A stretch of 64,000 nt of DNA, from positions 121,481,801 to 121,545,800 of the forward strand of contig NC_084663.1 in the NCBI RefSeq assembly GCF_028389875.1, given 5' to 3'. How positions within the stretch are numbered: the first letter of the stretch is position 1; each line of letters begins with the position of its first letter. The translations under genes and the position numbers were made by a program. Shown here in pieces: positions 1-63,400 of this stretch. The stretch is from Rhea pennata (lineage: Eukaryota > Chordata > Aves > Rheiformes > Rheidae). The notes beneath the pieces are model-generated. The model saw nothing but the letters and a program-made list of their open reading frames with translations. It was not told the origin of the DNA and did not search any database.

Positions 1-890
1 AGCTAAAAAAGTTACCATTTCCTATGTCTTGAGGGTGGGGGGAAAGCAGCTGCAGCTATGTGAAAGGAAATACTGGTTTCGTTTCAACATTCAAAAGGGT
101 CAGTGGTCTATGTAAAGCCATGTATCATCTAACAAATGCATGGCTTTTATATAAATCAGGCAAGTGTGAGGTAATACTAATACAAATAGTAAAAGGGCTG
201 TGTTTTCTTTCAGAAATGTTACTGACTACTTTCTCATCTGTGGGGCACTAATTTCCTGGGAAAGAAAAATATGAGGCTGTAAAATAAAGAATAATAGAAA
301 ATTTATGAATTGTATTAGTTCTTTTATTTCTTTGAAAAATTGCACAGTACTAGACTACTGAAAGAATAAAAGCTGTGATTAACTTTCATTAGAAAGGACT
401 CAATGTGAGGAAAAAAAAAAGACCTAGAAATCATAGCTATTATAGAGTATGAAGTTTGAGTTGGGATGTCTGGCTGATATTTCCTGTTTGAGTAGGTCCA
501 AAGATTGAGAAATTCTTGATGGAAGTTTCTAGTTTAACAAGCTGTGGTGGAAAAGAGGACAAACAGGTTAAGGGATGTATTTTTTTCCCCAGATTACAAG
601 AGGTGTTAGAAAGTACTTGTCTAGCTGTAGCATATCAAAAACAGTGTTGCGCATGTATTAGACAATTTTTAGCAATTGTTTTCCCACCTGTCTTTCAATG
701 TGCTTACTAACTATGATTCCAGTTAGTAAAACTGAATTATGGCGAATTGTTACAGGCACAAAATAGGCTATGAGGTGGATTGGAATCAAATGGGACTACT
801 TATCCATGTTAGATATGCTGAAAGGTGTTTCCCAATAAAAAAAAAATTAAAGAGGGCAGATATCAGAAATTTTTGTTAGGTTCCTATCAC
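1..890. other. No recognisable gene, downstream of TFF2
   Basis: AT-rich sequence with short A-runs (near 409 and 837). The open frames are under 65 codons and none resembles a known protein. If human synteny holds, TFF3 would lie further left, outside the window. Confidence 0.5.
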
Positions 891-910
891 GTTTCTAAAG
901 CAAAAAGTGC

Positions 911-916
911 TTTATT
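911..916 (-). terminator. TFF2: Poly(A) signal of TFF2
   Basis: AATAAA on the minus strand lies about 225 bases beyond the TFF2 stop codon. It is the first such signal after the stop, so the transcript probably ends near 890. Confidence 0.65.
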
Positions 917-1138
917 TCTCAGCATAAAGTAGATAGTTTGATAGCTACATCTCTACTGTCAAGTTTGTTGAGGACTTGAGCTTGCATATGAGCCCATCTG
1001 CCTGCACAGCCACATAACCTGTGAGTGATTGATCACTAACACCTGCCCTTTATGTGAGACTCTGGTATTTTTAGGATTAAGCTTTTTTCTCACACTCTGG
1101 GCAATACTCTGAACTCACACTGGTGAGGAAGGGAGATC

Positions 1139-1182
1139 TCATCCTGCACATTGCCTGTAACACGACCACTCCCAGCGTTTGA
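1139..1182 (-). CDS. TFF2: TFF2 exon 4 (C-terminal tail and stop)
   Basis: A TTGCTCTGCAAG acceptor, only 100 bases after the exon 3 donor, restores the frame and encodes [14 protein letters not shown] followed by TGA. Human TFF2 ends in a short tail with one cysteine that pairs with the N-terminal CQC motif. Here the tail is longer and has two cysteines. The exon is inferred from splice signals and phase. Confidence 0.7.
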
Positions 1183-4100
1183 CTTGCAGAGCAAGCCAAG
1201 AGCAGATACGGTATAATACCCTCCTAGGAGCTGTCATATGTCTCTGGGGAAGTACAGGAAAAGGTTTCATGCAGGTCCTTACCTTCACGCAATGTGCGGC
1301 GGTAGAAGCACCAGGGGACACCAGCGGGATGTGGCACAAAACAGCAGCCCTGCTTTTCACACTGCTGAGCTGTGATGCCAGGGTAGCCACAGTTTACTCT
1401 GGCTTCAACCTCAGAAGGACATACTTTCCTGACTGTGTAAAACAAACACAAAGGAAGAAGGCCATATTACTTTATGTTTCTTTTTACTGGTACAGTATTG
1501 TTCTTCTTACTCTGACCCCTAGTCAGGGATCCAAGGAGCTGTAAATGAGCAAAGCTGACAGCCCAGGTTAAAAGGCCCCTGCCACAGAATCTGTGGTTAT
1601 CTGTAACCTGCTCATTAAAACTCCTTAGTAGCATGATGGGTAGAGACCTAGGTTCCCTGCTGCACCAAGCGCAGGTAGTTGTGTGGATGATGGTGGGGGT
1701 TACAAATCCCTGGTGAAAAAGGGGTTATACCAGCTGGAGCTGCTGAGATGCAGCCAGCTGCCTTGCAGGGTGCAGGGTCTTTGTACCCCCCACGCCCTCA
1801 GGGGTACAGCTGGCTGCATTTGTGCCAGCAAACCCAAGAGAGGAACTCAGAGTGCTCACCCCAGAGGGGACCGTCTGCTGTGCTCTAGGGCTTAAAGCGG
1901 GGAAAATCCTGCCTGGCGGGCACAGATGCAGCTTTACATTTTTATAGATCTAGTGATGGAGTGAAAAGCCATATGTCCCCCATAACAGCACTAGGGATGT
2001 TGGCTTTGGACCAGGGTGTTGCCCAGAAGTGGCCCGATGCAAGGAGCTAACCCCAGTGCATCCTGGCCAATGTAAAAGAGTTGGCTGCAGGGAAGGGGTG
2101 GAAGGACCTGCCATCTCTGCATGAAGACTTCAGTTACAGAAAGGAGGTAAGTTGTTTAGGGGGAAAATCACTGTAACTATTCAAGAAAATGAAGGAAAAA
2201 ATTGATATAGGAGTTCAAATTTTCCAGTAGAGATTTACTGGAAATCCAAGGAGAAAAGGATCTGCCCTGGGGTAGTTTGGAGATTTCACTTGATGATGAC
2301 TGACAACAAAACAAGAGAGAGAGATAACAACTAAGGGAACTTATACTGTGAACTAGGCAGAAAGGGAAGTAAGTAGCAATTACCAAAAGAGCCTGAAGAA
2401 AAGAAAACAAAAAACTAGAAGTTGCAGAATGCAAGGGTCTTTTTAAAAGGCATTAAACAACTGCAGATGGACTCATCTACTGAGGACTTTCTGATTTCTT
2501 TGCTGTGCAGTACTAAAGTCCTCATTAGCTACTTAGAAAACCTATTTAAGTAGGTGCTAAAGATCCCTTGCTCAAGACAACAGCTGTCAGTGACACATTT
2601 TCAAATGATCAGCTTGGGTTAGTTGATAACTGGAAGCCCGAAGAGAAAGGAAATGGTTGCTGCAAGGAGAAGCAAGATTTGACTCTGCACAGTACTACCA
2701 GCAGTTTTCTAATAGATGTCTATGCCCATTTGGCTGGCCTTACAGTAAAAGCAGTTATTCCCTAGTTGTACATATTTCTGCATAATCAAGCAATAGGCAG
2801 ATCAGTGTTTCTAATATATTACCTCTCCTGTCTTTTGGAGAGAAGCACCAAGGAACGCCAGGGACTGAAGCATTGAAACAGCATCCAGCTCTCCGGCACT
2901 GTTCTGCTGTGATTCCTGGGTATCCGCAGTTCTTCCTCTCAGCGGGGGCCATATTACACTGGCATCTTGCTGTTGAGGACAAAACTAGTAAATTACTAGG
3001 TGTCTGTTTGTACACTTGCTGCTGAAAGTCCATTCATCAATTATCTATCGGGAACAACCAACTTTCCCTAGACTATGGCAGTCTTGCAAGTATACATTTT
3101 CTGTGGCTTGCTGAGATCAGTACATGAGCATTTTTAAATCTGCTACTGGTAAAAAGATAGCAGGTGAAATGCTAGACGTGTTACAGTTGGAGTGAAACTC
3201 CCACTGATTTCAGTAAGGTCTGTACTTCACTGATTGAGAATCTGTGGTCTCACCTGCAGCCAGCCCAGCTCAGCACAGTGAGGGTCAAGGATAAAATGGT
3301 AAAATATATAACTTCAAACGTTACACCAGTGAATGTTTGTTGTTTTGCCCATCTCACAGATTCGCAGAATATTTGGAGTAGGAAAGCACCTCTTGAGATC
3401 GTTAGGTCTAAGCCCTCTGCTCAAGTAGGTAAGCTAGAGCAGGCTGCCCAGGACTGTGTACGGTCAGATTTTGAGTATTTCCAAGGATGGATACTGCACA
3501 GTCTCTCTGGGCAACCTGTTTCAGTGTTCAGCCGCCCTCACAGTAAACAAGTTTTTTTCTCATACTCAGGTAGAATTATCTGTATTTCATTTTGTGCCCA
3601 TTGCCTCTCATCCCATCACTGGCACCACTGAGAATAGTCTATCTCTATCTTCCTTACTCCTCCCCACCAGATATCTCATTTGAAGAAAGAAAGAGTTAGA
3701 GATATTAAAATAGGTGGAAGGATGCAAAATCTCTGTCTTCAGATGACCATAAAAAACATACGATCATGTACAAATAGTTACAGGTGTGCTTTCAACATTT
3801 TAAGTCCACCTCACAGTCCTCCTCAACCTAGAAATTCTGGAGATACCACTAGAGCTCTGTTACTGAATTACCTACTTTGCACTTTTTGTCTAAATGATTG
3901 CCTTTTATTGAGGAGGCAGATAGATTTCTTTGAACTTGTATTCACATGACAAAGTAGCATAAAATAAATGTCAGAGGACTAGAGACAGAGCTAGTTCCTG
4001 CAGTCCTTCTGGAGGAAAGGTTTATTTAGTAAACTGGATAAATCATTTCAGGCATTTCTGCACCTCTACCTTTATAGCAGGCTCCTGGTTGTTCTGCTAA

Positions 4101-4423
4101 CATAAGAGTTCTCCTGGAGTCTGTTCCTGATGTCAATATACTACATACACAAGTGTATTTTTTTGCCACAGATTTCTCTGCAAAAATTAAAAAATAGACT
4201 CTAGCTTCTGGACAAGTACCAGAGCAAGATATTCACTATTTGATACATAGACTGGAGCTGTCCTCCTGCTGCAATTACAATATCAGTAGCATCAGGCCCA
4301 CATACATACCCATCAAGGCAACACCAAGCAAGCGTACTTACTTGGTGGCAACCTTGCTTCTGTCAAGGTGCTGAGAGCTACGACGAGGATGATGGAGAGC
4401 ACACAGATCCCTTTCAGATCCAT
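1139..4423 (-). CDS. TFF2: Trefoil factor 2, complete four-exon gene
   Basis: Coding exons are 4423-4342, 2969-2823, 1432-1283 and 1182-1139, and they join in one frame to about 140 residues (human TFF2 has 129). All introns are GT-AG and phase 1, as in the family. Residues 1-23 are a hydrophobic signal peptide starting [10 protein letters not shown]. Domain 1 (exon 2, about residues 30-72) has the CQC start, NCGYPG, AGCCF and GVPWCF. Domain 2 (exon 3, about residues 81-122) repeats NCGYPG, QGCCF and GVPWCF. Two tandem trefoils with the extra CQC cysteine identify TFF2 rather than TFF1 or TFF3. As known for the family, the product is a secreted, protease-resistant peptide that works with mucins in epithelial repair. 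It has a TATA box and a poly(A) signal and no lesions. The short last exon is the least certain part. Confidence 0.93.
1283..1432 (-). CDS. TFF2: TFF2 exon 3 (second trefoil domain)
   Basis: This 150-nt phase 1-1 exon follows a TTTGTTTTACACAG acceptor and ends at GTAAGG. All six cysteines and the WCF core are kept. If the donor were ignored, the frame would read on to a stop at 1224. Confidence 0.94.
2823..2969 (-). CDS. TFF2: TFF2 exon 2 (first trefoil domain)
   Basis: This 147-nt phase 1-1 exon follows a TTTTGTCCTCAACAG acceptor and ends at GTAATA. It encodes CQC and then a complete six-cysteine trefoil (NCGYPG, EQC, AGCCF, GVPWCF). NAS in the loop after CCF is a possible N-glycosylation site. 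Confidence 0.95.
3352..3680 (-). mobile_element. CR1 LINE 3' fragment, diverged
   Basis: The plus strand reads as the reverse complement of a CR1 3' region: TCACAGA-TTCGCAGAAT, then blocks resembling AGGCTGCCCAGGA, CTCTGGGCAACCTGTTTCAG and CCCTCACAGTAAA. The element is 5'-truncated, well diverged, and lies in TFF2 intron 1 in the same orientation as the gene. Confidence 0.75.
4342..4423 (-). CDS. TFF2: TFF2 exon 1 (signal peptide)
   Basis: The 82 coding nucleotides give 27 residues plus one base before a GTAAGT donor. The ATG lies 83 bases downstream of a TATAAAA box. The exon length and end phase equal those of the trefoil relic exon at 16220-16301 on the other strand. Confidence 0.93.
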
Positions 4424-16219: not shown

Positions 16220-16301
16220 ATGGAGAGGAAGGGACTTTTGTTACTGTCTGTTCTCCTAGTACTGGGCTTCAACACTCTGATAGAAGGCTGTGAACTCTTG
16301 A
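16220..16301 (+). pseudogene. Relic exon 1: intact TFF-type signal peptide
   Basis: It is an open 27-codon leader plus one base before GTGAGT. The hydrophobic core SVLLVLGF and the tail LIEGCELL resemble the TFF2 leader exon in length, phase and layout. This exon alone has no lesion. Confidence 0.75.
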
Positions 16302-19260: not shown

Positions 19261-19400
19261 CTACCAGTGAAAGTGGTGTGAGAGTAACAAGAAGCACTGC
19301 ATGTATCCAAATACCTGCGAAAGGGAATGCAAGAACTATGGGTGTTTTTATTCTCAGCACTCGGGAGTGCCCTGATATTTTCATCCTCTCATAAAAGCAG
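19261..19400 (+). pseudogene. Relic trefoil exon with stop at the core Trp
   Basis: Read in the frame of 19262, the segment HCMYPNTCEREC, then NYGCF, then SGVP, stop, YFHP aligns to a trefoil with only one codon deleted in the last loop and three codons missing before the second Cys. The loss of Trp and two Cys rules out a folding domain. Confidence 0.8.
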
Positions 19401-20691: not shown

Positions 20692-22423
20692 ACCATTCTG
20701 TTATCTTCTGAGAACATCGGTTCTGCTGTGTAACTGTCATCCAACACTGATCGACTGGATGATGAACTAATCCTGAGGAGGATAAAAGAAAGCAAGTTGC
20801 ATACATCTGTGTGGACTCAGACTCATTGTCAGCTGGTTTGAGAACCTGACAACCCACCCATCAGCAGAGATGTCCCTGATACCAACTGCCAGGCAGAATA
20901 TGAATCATCCTGATGCAGCTTGAGTGTGGTTAGAACAATCTAAGGAAAACAATAGTGTAGGGGTGGTCCCACAGGAACAAGGAAAGGGCAAGATGGTCAT
21001 TGTGCTGTGCACCTGTGGCTTAACTGTAGAGCTCTGATATGTATATCAGTTTTTAGTTCTGTTGTATTTCTAGATTTACTATACTTTTTAGCTTTGTTAT
21101 ATTTGTATATTGTCTGATATTAATTATTTAATGTTGCCCAGTGTCCATCATACATGTAGAACTGCTTAGATCTAATAAATTTTTATGCTTGACAAATCAT
21201 GATGTCTTGAATTCAGCCTGACTAATCTCAGAATCTGAAAGAATCCTGAATGCCCCTCCATTGGCATGTCATACTGCTCCATCAGTTAAATTGCAGCAGC
21301 TCTAAGCATATAGACATCTATAAAGCAGAACTTTTTTAAATCTTGTGCTTTGTTACATTAATGTTCAGGTCATTCCTGCCTTGAACTTACTACAGCTAAT
21401 AACTAGGAGGAGAAATAGGTTTTCAAAAATAAATGCCTCTGAGCATCCTTTTACCCCTTTTGATATTTTAAAATAAAATTTAAACATGACATAACGAACA
21501 CTTGCTTTAATAGTTTTCAAGTTGCCTGTTGCACTGCGACAACAGTAGTGACCCTCTGACTGCATATGCCCTGAGCTGCAAGTGGAACAGTGGTGGCTTC
21601 AGAGAGCTTGATGTGACTGTATCTTGCAACATGGGAAAACAGCTCAACTATTTTTATTATTGTTTTATTATATATAAGAAGGTTTGCATTAGTGTTGCTG
21701 GCTGGTTCCCATTGGGCCTGGTGGATTCTAATGTGATGCAGCCTGAGCTGGTTTTCAGGAAAATGCTACAGCATCCCCAAACTTACAGGGCCAGTTGTCC
21801 TTTCACCTGCCTTAACAAATCAGGGAGTTGTGTGCAATTAATAAGGAAAAACTTCCTAATAAAGGCAGAAGTTTTGCATGCTGCCGCCTAAGGCCAGGTG
21901 TTTCTCACCAAAAGCCTCCACTTCATATGCCCCCCAATGAGTCCACACACTCCTTTTTGTGCAGGGGGCAGAGGAGAGGGAAGTTATGTTTGAGCCCTCC
22001 GACCACACAGGTTAGAGCTGGCTCCTGGGCAGGCAAGGTTGCATCTGCTGGATGAGCCCTCTGCCCTGAGCTCTGGGTACCAGACTTCCCCCAAGGCCTT
22101 GTTAGCCTAGTTTGCTCAGAGGACCTGCACAATAAACCCCTTCTGCAAGAGCATGATTGCTGTTCTGTGAGCCCATGCTGTTGCACAAGAAGTGCTGATA
22201 ATTGCAAACCCTGTATTTACCTCCTGATTTTTCTTCTTCAGCAATATTGGAACTGGAAATATGAAGAGACTAGTTATTGGAGACAGAGGTCTTAAATTTT
22301 TGTTTATCAGCTGAGCACACTGAATCAAGGGAGCGCTGATCTTGGAAAGTGCTGTGCTGTGGTTCATGAGTGGACTTGGGACTCCCTCTTCTGGTGTATG
22401 GACTGGGCACCACAGAGACGAAA

Positions 22424-22520
22424 AGAGGCGGGATGGTTATGGTCTTCTGCAGAGGAGATGTTGACTGCTCAGAGGCGGGATGGTTATGGTCTCCTGCAGA
22501 GGAGATGTTGACTGCTCAGA
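22424..22520. repeat. 47-bp tandem duplication
   Basis: The unit starting AGAGGCGGGATGGTTATGGT recurs at exactly 47 bases with about one mismatch (TTC versus TCC before TGCAGAGG), followed by the start of a third copy. Such low divergence points to a recent duplication. Confidence 0.9.
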
Positions 22521-24108: not shown

Positions 24109-24249
24109 TGAGGTTTAGCTCAGTTGGTTATAGCATGATGCTGCTAATGCCAAGATCGTGGGTTCAATCCCTGTATGAGGCTATGCTGAGGGTTGGACTA
24201 GATGATCTCCAGAGGTCCCTTCCAACCTTACCATTCTATGATTCTATGA
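24109..24249 (+). mobile_element. tRNA-Ile-headed SINE with CR1 tail (TguSINE1-like)
   Basis: The head (24109-24181) has the layout of tRNA-Ile with an A box (TAGCTCAGTTGG) and a B box (GGTTCAATCC), the latter with one CpG-type change. The tail (about 24190-24249) is nearly identical to the last 55-60 bases of both CR1 copies in this window, including GATGATCTCCAGAGGTCCCT and the ATTCTATG repeat. This is the structure expected of a SINE copied by CR1 machinery. From memory, the known family of this type, TguSINE1, is passerine. Confidence 0.85.
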
Positions 24250-24321: not shown

Positions 24322-24465
24322 CATCTGGGGACAGAGGTCTGAAGCACCAGGACACATCTGGAATGGCTGAATCAAAGCAGCAATTTTATTCTAAGCCTTC
24401 TGTCTCCATGATGCCTGCAAACCCAGTTTTCCCTGTTTTGGGGTGCACATTGCATTCACTAGGGT
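24322..24465 (-). pseudogene. TFF1: TFF1-like trefoil exon with stop and lost cysteines
   Basis: A CTTTGCTTTAAACAG acceptor gives the same phase as exon 1. The 144-nt exon aligns to a single trefoil over its full length with one codon missing before Cys2, and both splice sites are intact. The remaining CCF and WCF motifs make the identity firm even though the domain cannot fold. Confidence 0.82.
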
Positions 24466-26752
24466 CTGTTTAAAGCAAAGGATAGGCTAAAGAACATGCA
24501 TATTATGTATATGTCATGCAAACAGACGTGTGAATGCATAGAGATAAATACATATTTTTCCTAAGTAATCTGTGCTGCTACTCCAGTGTTATAAACCTGT
24601 GTGGTCACATATCAAACGTATCTGTCAGGATATGTTTGATACATTCCATGTCAGGTCACAGTCCTGAATTCAGGAATGTAATATCTTCTACTATAAACAG
24701 GCCCACCACAAGTAAGTCCTTTTAGCAAAGAGCTACGTAGTGAAGTGAGTTATGCTCTTGGCCTGATTTGAGGTGGAATAAGCTAATCTTCACAGTTTAA
24801 ATAGTTTCTCTGTCCTCATCATTAGCTATGATGGCCATAGCGCTGCTGCACAGATTGGTATGCCTGGAAATGTCACCCTGAAAAGCCTCCAAGGGGATGA
24901 CACTGTGCACTGCACTGCTTCACTAACGAAACACGCAGCTGATAGCGGTGGCAAGCTGCAAGTATGAGATATTATGTTGGTGAGGCATAAACATGAAGCA
25001 AGATGTGACTCTGCAGCTATAACATGAAAGTAACATCACTGAAACCAGGGGCGTTGTGTTATGGAATGTTTGTGTGAAAAGCGAAGTGGTGCTCACTCAG
25101 AAAGCTTCAGCTCCAACATACCAGTGGAGATGGGCTTACTCAGTGGGCTACCTATATCACCTCCTTGCACAAAAACATGCTTTATTGCCTTTATGTGTTG
25201 AAAATGCTCTGTTTCAGGCTTCTTCACTAAGGATGCCCCAGGGACAAGAGTTACCTGCACTGTCAGGAGGTCTGAATCCCCACAGCTAGTCTCCCCCTGT
25301 CTGGGCACTAAGTTCCCACAGCAGGAATCATTTATTTTGTATTTTGTATTGCACTGCCTACACATCATACTGCAAACACCTGAGAGACCCTCCAACTGAA
25401 CTGTTGACTCTTAGGCCCCTCTTCTCCGCCAGGGAAGCCAAAGGTATCTTCATAAACAACATTTCTGAGCTTTGTACAACAAGGATTATAGGTGATGTCA
25501 CCTTAGAAACTCACACACTTAAAAAAATCCTTACTTACTAGCACTTATATATTGTTAGCACTGGATTAACTAAACATTTGGCAAATCTCCTTTACTTCTC
25601 AATACTGGCTTATTTTTGGAGTTCATTTAACTTGAAGAATGAAAACTGATTAGACCTTTTGTAATGTAATCCTTTAAGGATGTTCCCAATGCCGCTTTAT
25701 TTTTCCTGATGTCACTTATGTAACAGTGAGAAGCAGTCATACACAGTTTGAAAACAGCTAAATAGCTTCACTCTCTGCTTCTCTGCTAGTAGAATAATGC
25801 TTGCCTTTTTCAGCTGCTGAATAATTTCAACTCAAAACAAAATTTGTTTTTTCATCAACTCAAAAGAGAAAAAAATCCACAGTAATTCCTGACAGGATTC
25901 AGAAAATTGTTAGTTTTGAGCTGTTAATTCCTAAAATCAATTCTCCCAGAGAATATGAAAATTGCTCTTATCAAAAGTCACATCTTACTTCATTACATTT
26001 TCATATTGTGTAAGCAGTTGTCTTGCACATACTGGGGCACACTGGTCTCAAAGATAATGTCATGTGAACTTTTTGTCTAAACCTTTTTGCAACACTGTCC
26101 TGTGGGCAGCATGACCCCACATGCCTATTGGAGACTATCTGGAGATGGGATGACAAAGCGGGAATCCCTCCACAGAGCAAATGCAGGCAGCTAACGCAGC
26201 AGCTTCATATGCCTCACCCCAGGCTAATATTGTGAGCAATTCCCCAGAAAGCAGTCTTCTCATGCCTTTTTGTCCCCTCAAATGAATGCAGCTTCCATGA
26301 AGGCGCAGGGAAGGTCAGACCACAAATCCCAGTCAAGATTTAGTCCTCAGAGGAAGGCTCAACATATAGTATTGCTGGAAGAACAGACCTACATATGGCT
26401 AAATTACCACAGCTAAGAGAAACATAAATGGTTTCCCAGACATCTTTGCTCCCTCTTTTCTCCCCTCCTTCTGAAGGAAGACCACTGAAAAGGTCTTAAA
26501 TTTCTGTGTCTGTCCAATTTTTTATGATCACGTACTATATTATGTCTTACCTCTGCATATAGCTTTATAATTATGAATCTAATGTTTGATTAAAGTTTAG
26601 TATTTCTTAATAATAAAGCAAACTCCTTATGAACCATGTTATTTGACAGCCCTCCCAAGCTAGCAGCATGCCTCATTAGGACAGGCTAGTTTCATACAGC
26701 TTGATTATCTTGTAAAGTTCTTGGATGGTGATATAGAAAGTTATGCACTTAC

Positions 26753-26852
26753 TCTCTGATGTACTGCTGAGCCCTACAATCAACGAGATGGTCAGGAGCC
26801 GGAAAACCTTGTTTTCCTTTGCTGTCTTCCAGGTAGACTTTAGGTAGAGCAT
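26753..26852 (-). pseudogene. TFF1: TFF1-like exon 1 (leader, ancestral ATG lost)
   Basis: It is open from the upstream ATG at 26852 to a GTAAGT donor. The upstream ATG would add 11 hydrophilic residues before the leader and lies only about 10 bases after the start site predicted from the TATA box, so it is a poor replacement. Confidence 0.72.
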
Positions 26853-26887: not shown

Positions 26888-26894
26888 TTTTATA
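26888..26894 (-). promoter_or_regulatory. Surviving TATA box of the TFF1-like pseudogene
   Basis: TATAAAA lies about 36-42 bases before the upstream ATG. The promoter core outlived the coding sequence, which suggests a fairly recent loss. Confidence 0.55.
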
Positions 26895-40051: not shown

Positions 40052-58277
<18,226 letters not shown>

Positions 58278-60414: not shown

Positions 60415-63400
60415 ATGGCGGTGGCTGAGACACAGCTGTATGCAAAGGTGTCCAACAAACACAGGAACAAAAACACCTCTTCTCTCCTTGAGTCCCTCTT
60501 AGCCAAAGGATTCCCAGCTCATATTGCGTGAGTAATGTGCTTCAGCTCCTTTACATAGCAAGAGGTATTTCTGGTAAGAACTTGAACACAGAGAGCCTGG
60601 TTTGTAATCAAGAAAGTGTGCCCTTTCTGGGTGGTGATGTCTCTACACAGGGATCAGATGTGTCTTGCTTTGAATTTCTTGTAGAGCAGAGTTTTGTTCG
60701 TATTCTGAAAAAAACCTGCTCTGTATACATTTCTTAAAATACTGTGTGTATCTCTGAAGACCATACTCTTCCATGTCTTGAGGTTGAGAGGCTTCAAAGT
60801 GACTTAAGAAGCTGATGTCCATAGCTAACTCTTGGGATAATTAGCCAGCATTTGGGATAATTCCTCTTTTATTTTTGGTCTTATCACCATCATTATAAAG
60901 AGTTAAATGTGGGAGTATCTTTTATACAAAGTTGTATAAAGCCTGACAAAGATCTCTTGTTGGGTTTTGTCACTAGAAACTATTTTAAAAGAGTAAGCTT
61001 TTTTTAACAAAATGCCATATTTAATATGATTAGGATTTTTTATGTTAATAAGATTGTAAAAAAGTCTATCACTTTTTATTCCTGTCTTGAATCAGGATCT
61101 TTTTCTAAAAGCATGTCCTAACAGGAAATACCGTATAATAATAAAGAATCAGACGCTATTCTTGGTGACATCAGTTGAGGAAAGATTAACCGGATTAGCT
61201 CATCTGCAACTGAGCTGATAAAAAAGAAACATGATGGTCATTCCCTCCCCAAACGTTGTTCAGATTCAATAGTCAAGTTTTATGTGGGAGTTTCAAATTT
61301 CTGGAGGACAACTCTTGAGTGCTTCTGTGATGGCCAGTTGAACCATGTAATTGTCAACATCAACGTCTCCAGAAAATAACTCCTTTTTATTTAAATGTCA
61401 AAGAACTCCTCACCAAAATTATTTGAAAAGGGGGAGAGCAGTATGTGTTTGTGGCCTCCATTTTGACTTTTCATTGAAAATTAGACCAGTTGAAAAGGTG
61501 AAGTTCAGAAATACTGTGTTGATTTTTCTAGGAACACCTGTTTAATGGAACAGCCACAGATGTAATGGGCATAATTTACAAAAATACTCTGGGCCTCTTA
61601 TCCCCAGTCATGCCCAGTGGAATTTTAGTGGTAGAGCTTATCGGGAAATCTGGTTTACTGTTTGTCTAATAAGTACTGTAAGTTTCATCACCCCAGAGTA
61701 ATGGCTAGTTTTAAAACTTTGGGTTCTGAAGGCGATGTTCTTCAAATTCCCTTTGAAACATTTTCTGCTGTTACTGAGACGGATTTGTGCTTCCCAAGTC
61801 AAAAACAACAAACAGTGGCCAAAGTACCATGTACAACATAAAATAACAAAATGTCCAAAAGTCTTTTTTTTTTCCTTTTCAGCTTTAGTTTCCCTTTAAC
61901 AATTTTTAGATCTTCAAAATTTGGAACACATTTTATAAAACCTTTTAACTTTCTCTGCAGTTCCTGGTTTCAGCTGTAAGTGAAAGTACTGAAAGATTCT
62001 TCTTTTGTGATATCCTGGCCTGAGCAAAACAAGGCTGGGTAGAAATATCACAATATCTCTCATAATGTAGAACTGACATGCCAAAGCAACTTTTCCTGAA
62101 AGAGCAATGTTTCTAGCGTTTCTTCATACTTTCTATCTGAGAGAATTCTGTAGATACAGGATTTATTTTATGTATTATCTTTCCACCTTTACTACTCAGC
62201 TCGGAAGCAGGGGTTGCTCAGCCACAGCCTACTGCTCATGTTAAGGACTGTACAAGCTCTGCTGGAAGCCACCCTACAACCAGCATAGCTGATGAGACAA
62301 AAGGCAGGTACAGACTGAGAGAGGAGCAGGGGGGAGCAAGGAGATAATACTGGCCCAGGATAACAGTCCATGGTCTCAGGCAGCCACTTGTTATATTACT
62401 CTTATGATTGTAAAGACACTGTGGTAAAGAGAAGTTAGAGTCAGGCTCAGCTTGGCTTCAGGGCTGTTCGTAGAGAGCTTCTCTCCTAGTGGGAGGAGCA
62501 GCATGACATAAAGTGGCAAAATGCTCGCCTTGAGACTTAACAAGTGAGCGATAAAGGCTGGCATCTCTGGCAGAGCAGCTGCAGGCATTGGCTTTTCAAC
62601 AGCATACAACCCAAAAGGCTGCGTGGGGAGAACGACACAAACACAAGTTGTTCATGTTTGATGTGATGGAGAAGGGGAAGCCAGAGGAAGGACAGAAAGA
62701 AAGAGTGCAGGAGTACTTCAGTCACAGAAGATGCAAACTAGTTTTACGCTGGATAGCTTATGTTTTTGACATTGATTTGGACATATCAGCTAATTTACTA
62801 TATGAAAAAGGAAAGCAGGAGGTAAAGCTGAAGCTGAAAAACGCTCATAAGCATTCAGCCATGTCAAGTCCCCACTAATGAGCCAAGAACAGTTTATCAT
62901 GTATATAAGTACATTTAATTGTTTTTAACAAGCCATATGTAACTTCTGTATTAGAGAGAAGGCAGAAGGCTGGGAGGAAGCACTCGGGATGAGTCTGGAT
63001 CCTGCTATTTAATGCCCTGCTGGCACATGCTCAGATGCCACGGGGATGAAAGGAAGATAAGAACTTAAGAAGACTAGGTTAAACAAACCAATGCCTTCAA
63101 CATCCAGCTACCAGAAAGTATGGCTTCAGGAGAGAAGGAAAGGGCAAAAGATGAACTGATGCCAAGTAGTTTAGTATTTTTCCCCCATGTCTGCTGTTTC
63201 TCATTCACCTTCGCGTCTTCTGAAAAGTTTCTAAATGGGTTCCAGGGCTGAAAATGGGATGCATGTGTACAGGTGCTACTTAAATAATGGAATTTCTTCA
63301 CTCTGCAAAAATCTTGGGTTTAGCCACAACAATTTGTTCACGTGAAGGACATTGGTGGCATTTTGAAAGCCTTTGTGAGAAAAGGAAATGTAAAGGAAAT

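Follow-up and report, generated by a model that had tools for sequence, protein, structure and literature searches.

This analysis indicated that the minus strand between positions 26852 and 24322 of the window, i.e., the whole 64,000-base stretch of vertebrate DNA under study, which is free of any N, very probably carries a pseudogene that once encoded a secreted TFF-family peptide with a single trefoil, in the place where TFF1 sits in human. As it stands, the sequence of this locus (relic A) cannot make a six-cysteine trefoil. A second trefoil relic (relic B), absent from an earlier note on this DNA, lies between TFF2 and relic A on the plus strand. The features on which this reading is based are collected in Table 1. 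Human TFF, TMPRSS3 and UBASH3A proteins were used as probes, 41 residues of the TFF1 probe agreeing with PDB 6v1d.

Table 1. Position, strand and basis of the features identified in the window.
Feature	Position	Strand	Basis or remark
TFF2	540..4423	minus	looks intact; left end of window
TFF2 leader	ATG at 4423	minus	
TFF2 trefoil domains	2827-2958 and 1290-1421	minus	
Relic B leader exon	16220..16301	plus	ATG intact, phase-1 donor GTGAGT, TFF2-like leader
Relic B trefoil exon	19261..19400	plus	profile, tblastn
TguSINE1-type SINE	24110..24249 (ends approximate)	plus	just beyond relic A trefoil exon
Relic A trefoil exon	24322..24465 (144 nt, phase 1-1)	minus	profile, tblastn, Pfam, splice sites
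Relic A leader (signal-peptide) exon	26753..26852	minus	upstream ATG to phase-1 donor
Relic A upstream in-frame ATG	26850..26852	minus	frame open through leader exon to donor
Relic A TATA box	26888..26894	minus	TATAAAA
TMPRSS3	40052..54758	minus	eight matched segments; tblastn with human protein
UBASH3A first coding exon	60415..60528	plus	tblastn E 4e-10, human protein

Relic A is flanked by TFF2 (minus) on one side, and by TMPRSS3 (minus), whose last exon was matched by Pfam Trypsin, and the UBASH3A exon (plus) on the other. Human TFF1 is presumably on the same strand as here, with TMPRSS3 adjoining. The mammalian gene order is given as TFF1-TFF2-TFF3 in the consulted part of Jiang et al. (2011, PMC3146476). 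The apparently intact neighbour of the relics, TFF2, scored 111.2 bits with Pfam Trefoil. A profile built from eight trefoil domains, its own two among them, gave 82.0 and 76.6 bits for these two, values that are thus partly self-matches. Its last exon probably lies near 542, as suggested by an acceptor and by an alignment of a published chicken TFF2 3′ primer at 377-355; this position was picked from four candidates given by a looser acceptor/Cys/stop pattern, and the primer had no match in the window when at most three mismatches were allowed. Apart from the two TFF2 domains, a scan of the six frames with the strict six-cysteine pattern found no intact trefoil in the window. The Rfam gathering scan and ARAGORN each returned no match in the window. 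In viral contigs, relatives of TFF2 amounted to two weak loci covering residues 43-105, with 48% identity in the best segment, and these were left aside here.

The trefoil exon of relic A reached 33.0 bits with the eight-domain profile, two domains of which are those of the window's own TFF2, against a per-window best with a median of 4.7 and a maximum of 9.4 bits in 100 dinucleotide-shuffled windows. It was indeed found by tblastn with human TFF1 (E 1.8e-7), TFF2 (6.1e-8) and TFF3 (1.1e-7), and it passed the Pfam Trefoil cut-off of 21 with 25.6 bits when the stop was read as X, with a best stretch that spans positions 14-43 of the 43 in the profile; the part after the stop, taken alone, scored 20.4, just under this cut-off. 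Both splice sites are present, with an acceptor (AACAG/AC) before 24465 and a donor (G/GTGAGT) after 24322, and the phases of the exon are those of the TFF2 trefoil exons. The lesions are of several kinds. Thr stands at the position of Cys2 and Gly at that of Cys3, Cys1 and Cys4-6 being kept; an in-frame TAA (24388-24386) lies just ahead of the CC pair; two conserved prolines are gone, and near Cys2 the exon has a net deficit of one codon. When near-invariant trefoil positions were picked by eye and scored by hand, 13 of 19 proved to be kept. The six-cysteine spacing of a trefoil is accordingly not found in one open frame of relic A.

The leader exon of relic A lies below a TATA box and ends in a phase-1 donor (A/GTAAGT after 26753), so that the architecture of the family, a leader and a trefoil exon joined in phase 1, is complete in relic A and in TFF2. 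Local alignment of the leader regions of relic A and TFF2 scored 38, a value that none of 300 simple shuffles reached (largest 36), and it paired the two TATA boxes. At the ancestral start (26819-26817), relic A has AAG and TFF2 has ATG, in a common ACAGCAA-GGA context. An in-frame ATG is nevertheless found 11 codons before this AAG and 42 bases past the first base of the TATA box, and the loss of the start alone may therefore not silence relic A; a clean silencing by start loss was rejected on this ground. In a scan with the window's own TFF2 leader and the human TFF1 leader as queries, and with a phase-1 donor required, TFF2 scored 106 (a self-match), relic B 54 and relic A 31, against 29 for the best of 30 shuffled windows. 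When the donor condition was dropped, the leader of relic A kept its third rank in the window, but the bests of the shuffled windows then ranged from 24 to 39. Taken alone, its sequence is thus within the noise, and the leader is backed by its context more than by its own sequence. The earlier note had described a leader exon with a TATA box and a good donor, a trefoil exon with both splice sites, the loss of Cys2 and Cys3 with a TAA just before the CC pair, and a position and orientation like those of human TFF1; all of these were recovered here. It had also read the aligned start codon as AAG, which is correct, but the clean start loss that this would imply is weakened by the in-frame ATG at 26852.

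Relic B is a dead trefoil gene as well. Its leader score of 54 exceeds the best of the 30 shuffled windows both without the donor condition (39) and with it (29). Its trefoil exon reached 16.3 bits with the profile (E 1.2e-4), above the shuffled maximum of 9.4, and was found by tblastn with TFF3 (E 1.2e-5); with Pfam Trefoil it scored 16.7 bits, under the cut-off of 21. Phase-1 donors are present, yet the trefoil frame is offset from the acceptor, the offset lying between the acceptor and Cys2; a stop stands at the Trp position, and Cys5 and Cys6 are lost. By hand scoring, 9 of 18 near-invariant positions are kept, one further position being unscored owing to the frame offset. Relic B is more decayed than relic A. 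The two relics are oriented tail to tail. A search for a larger duplication joining them gave only short inverted pairs (28 and 31 nt, 71-74% complementary), and relics A and B thus look like old paralogues, not like the arms of a recent inversion. Since relic B is dead too, the trefoil genes lost from the interval number at least two, with TFF2 retained.

Repeats were also observed in the window. Two LINE copies on the plus strand (47569-49640 and 40859-41997), which we take to be CR1, are 89.6% identical over 1,170 aligned bases, and one copy holds an open frame of 447 codons with reverse-transcriptase-like sequence. An older LINE fragment (3378-3638, minus), inside intron 1 of TFF2, is about 69-70% identical to both copies. 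A tandem duplication of a 47-base unit, with copies 98% identical, occupies 22424-22517. The head of the SINE next to the trefoil exon of relic A scored 84 with tRNA-Ile and 20 with tRNA-Asp, and its tail is 98% identical over 58 columns to the CR1-like end at 41940-41997. A tRNA-Ile head and a CR1-derived tail are the make-up of TguSINE1, and the SINE was typed by this make-up. In the consulted part of Suh et al. (PMC5729268), TguSINE1, with its tRNA-Ile head and CR1 tail, is reported to have arisen in Eupasseres. On that basis the SINE would make a passerine probable, one outside the New Zealand wrens.

Regarding the identity of relic A, TFF1 orthology appears, from its position, to be the somewhat likelier label, the sequence itself not deciding. 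Relic A lies between TFF2 and TMPRSS3 on the strand expected of TFF1; relic B, however, is found in the same interval on the opposite strand, and position no longer singles out one gene. The closest sequence is not TFF1, this comparison being a weak test on a short and decayed exon. As protein, exon 2 of relic A indeed scored 97.0 with domain 1 of the window's own TFF2 and 92.5 with domain 1 of human TFF2, above TFF1 (86.0) and TFF3 (84.0), and 70.0 and 47.0 with the second domains of human and own TFF2, respectively. The earlier note had named the locus as TFF1, dead in its syntenic place: the presence, between TFF2 and TMPRSS3, of a dead trefoil gene with one domain is borne out, while the name TFF1 is positional only, and a firm TFF1 name drawn from sequence was rejected in view of the higher score of TFF2 domain 1. 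For relic B, the protein scores were 76.5 with TFF3, 71.5 with domain 1 of human TFF2, 69.5 with domain 1 of the window's own TFF2, and 51.0 with TFF1.

These scores lend some weight to another reading, to which we give a substantial minority of our confidence, in which relic A is not TFF1 but a partial duplicate of TFF2 (leader plus one domain) or a TFF3-like sauropsid paralogue, and birds may either never have possessed TFF1 or have lost it with nothing left behind. This reading overlaps with that of a TFF-family pseudogene, which itself leaves it a slightly larger share, still short of half. Besides the ranking of the protein scores, it is in line with the short tail of exon 2, as in TFF2 domain 1 and TFF3 and unlike the long tail of TFF1, and with relic B, by which at least two extra TFF genes are shown to have stood in the interval. 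Position and strand, by contrast, agree with human TFF1, a single trefoil exon was found in relic A, and its leader ties between TFF1 and TFF2 (protein scores of 30 and 31). Moreover, protein and DNA disagree on which TFF2 domain is nearer to relic A. In DNA-level alignments, each assessed with 300 simple shuffles, relic A scored 35 with TFF2 domain 1 (reached by one shuffle) and 49 with domain 2 (reached by none), while relic B scored 48 with domain 1 (none) and 22 with domain 2 (90 shuffles). The trefoil exons of relics A and B scored 36 with each other (none) and the two TFF2 domains 76 (none); among the leaders, the score was 34 for TFF2 and relic B (one shuffle) and 30 for relics A and B (10 shuffles). 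Part of these alignments are thus non-significant, and they rank the relatives differently from the protein scores. As protein favours TFF2 domain 1 (97.0 vs 47.0 for domain 2) and DNA favours domain 2 (49 vs 35), scores on a short decayed exon do not place relic A.

Like TFF1 (pS2; PDB 6v1d, 1hi7, 1ps2), relic A has a leader exon and a single trefoil exon on the minus strand between TFF2 and TMPRSS3; it differs in the loss of Cys2 and Cys3, in the internal stop and in the shorter tail of exon 2, and TFF1 is not its best protein match. An exon 3 of relic A, the last exon, which in TFF1 carries the seventh cysteine, was not found by pattern search: the acceptor/Cys/stop pattern gave one unconvincing candidate, at 21890, with 9 of 20 pyrimidines and a peptide unlike TFF, and gave none for relic B nor for TFF2 itself. 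With TFF2 domain 1 (that of the window; porcine TFF2, PDB 1pos and 2psp), relic A shares the best protein score, the start context and the TATA region. TFF2 nevertheless has two trefoil domains and looks intact, while relic A has one and is dead, and at the DNA level it is domain 2 that scores higher with relic A.

The age of the loss was approached through a rough model of neutral decay. For relic A its best values were 0.11-0.185 substitutions per site (widest 95% range under the different assumptions 0.055-0.365), and for relic B 0.165-0.22 (range 0.09-0.435). The inputs were the state of the trefoil positions (kept or lost) and of the splice nucleotides, together with the start, the stop and the breaks in frame, with the 19 positions picked by eye from the eight domains and scored by hand, and with round codon numbers of 70 and 75. 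The model assumes an ancestor with all positions, Jukes-Cantor substitution and indel ratios of 0.03-0.12, which have no source, and the one-codon shortening of relic A near Cys2 was modelled both as one event and as two compensating events. A rate of 2-3.9e-9 substitutions per site per year is given for chicken-turkey introns (PMC2946954, consulted in part). At that rate, which may not be that of this bird, the best values would put relic A at about 28-93 My, and the extremes would put it at 14-183 My. The earlier note had argued from the kept promoter and splice signals that the loss was not ancient. The signals are indeed kept, but this conclusion does not follow from them. Under neutrality, the chance that all six splice nucleotides persist is 0.55, 0.42 and 0.31 at 0.1, 0.15 and 0.2 substitutions per site, respectively; such survival is common at the decay estimated here, so that the presence of the signals is no proof of a recent loss, and a recent loss argued on this basis was rejected.

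From a mechanistic point of view, relic A would once have made a mucosal trefoil peptide and, after losing constraint, would have gone into decay. If the surviving promoter is still used, the spliced transcript, as read by hand, would be translated from the upstream ATG into no more than a truncated peptide of about 59 residues. Nonsense-mediated decay follows a rule on the distance from stop to junction, and with the stop 64 nt before the donor of exon 2, such decay would be likely provided that splicing still joins a third exon to it. TFF2 would be the natural substitute for the lost trefoil peptide, in line with its strong expression in chicken proventriculus and gizzard (Jiang et al., 2011, in the part consulted). 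It seems improbable that a transcript is still made from this promoter, with the upstream ATG, and has gained a new use, either as a short secreted peptide that is not a trefoil or as a regulatory RNA. The TATA box, the donor and the acceptor all survive, together with an in-frame ATG followed by an open leader, as such a use would have it, but the six splice nucleotides would survive by chance with a probability of 0.31-0.55 over the same range of decay (d = 0.2-0.1), and the peptide would carry one cysteine of the trefoil set. Less probable still is that the lesions are errors of assembly or sequencing in a working gene: the analysis covers one sequence only, but relic A holds several kinds of lesion, relic B has lesions of its own, and the TFF2 exons are apparently intact. 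A chance resemblance has a negligible probability, as the leader of relic A without the donor condition is inside the shuffled range but its trefoil exon, with the exon phases of the family on both sides, is far over the best of 100 shuffled windows, on which chance was rejected for both trefoil exons (33.0 and 16.3 vs 9.4 bits).

The preferred reading, a dead TFF-family gene, has to be set beside what is published on birds. In chicken, no TFF gene but TFF2 was found, with assembly gaps allowed for, according to the consulted part of Jiang et al. (2011, PMC3146476). A repertoire of TFF2 only in chicken would be in keeping with an older loss or with independent losses. TFF2 was the sole working trefoil factor gene reported there, as it is the sole apparently intact one in this window, and relics are not mentioned in that part of the chicken report. 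Another report, in the sections consulted (PMC12372087), places Tff1 and Tff2 in a conserved block in tetrapods, with platypus lacking both and echidna lacking Tff1, and lists chicken, among the species covered, as gastric. As it reads there, TFF1 is kept in tetrapods generally, which speaks against the pseudogene reading, and these two reports, as far as consulted, sit poorly together on the TFF genes of birds. The monotremes and agastric fishes treated in the consulted sections of PMC12372087 are alike in having lost trefoil genes from the syntenic block, but their loss is tied there to that of the stomach, while this bird keeps TFF2. We found no earlier report of trefoil relics in birds in the literature covered, most subscription papers lying outside this scope, and the main text of PMC4290089 does not mention TFF1, TFF3, trefoil, TMPRSS3 or UBASH3A.

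The loss at this locus is of an ordinary kind, and relic A is a pseudogene of a known kind. With a second relic, the case is one of cluster reduction more than of the loss of one gene. Tentatively, and with rather less than even confidence, a trefoil cluster of birds, or at least of passerines, with at least three genes in both orientations from TFF2 to TMPRSS3, may have collapsed in that stretch to TFF2, which would have taken over the role of TFF1. Relics A and B would then be the remains of that collapse, and birds with a working glandular stomach would live without TFF1. Members of the trefoil family protect the gut lining, and these relics help to trace how trefoils dwindled in the ancestry of this bird. 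If other birds share the lesions, the reported lack of other TFF genes in chicken would become a traceable and datable loss. A lineage with a glandular stomach but without TFF1 would offer a natural test of the need for TFF1 and of its replacement by TFF2.
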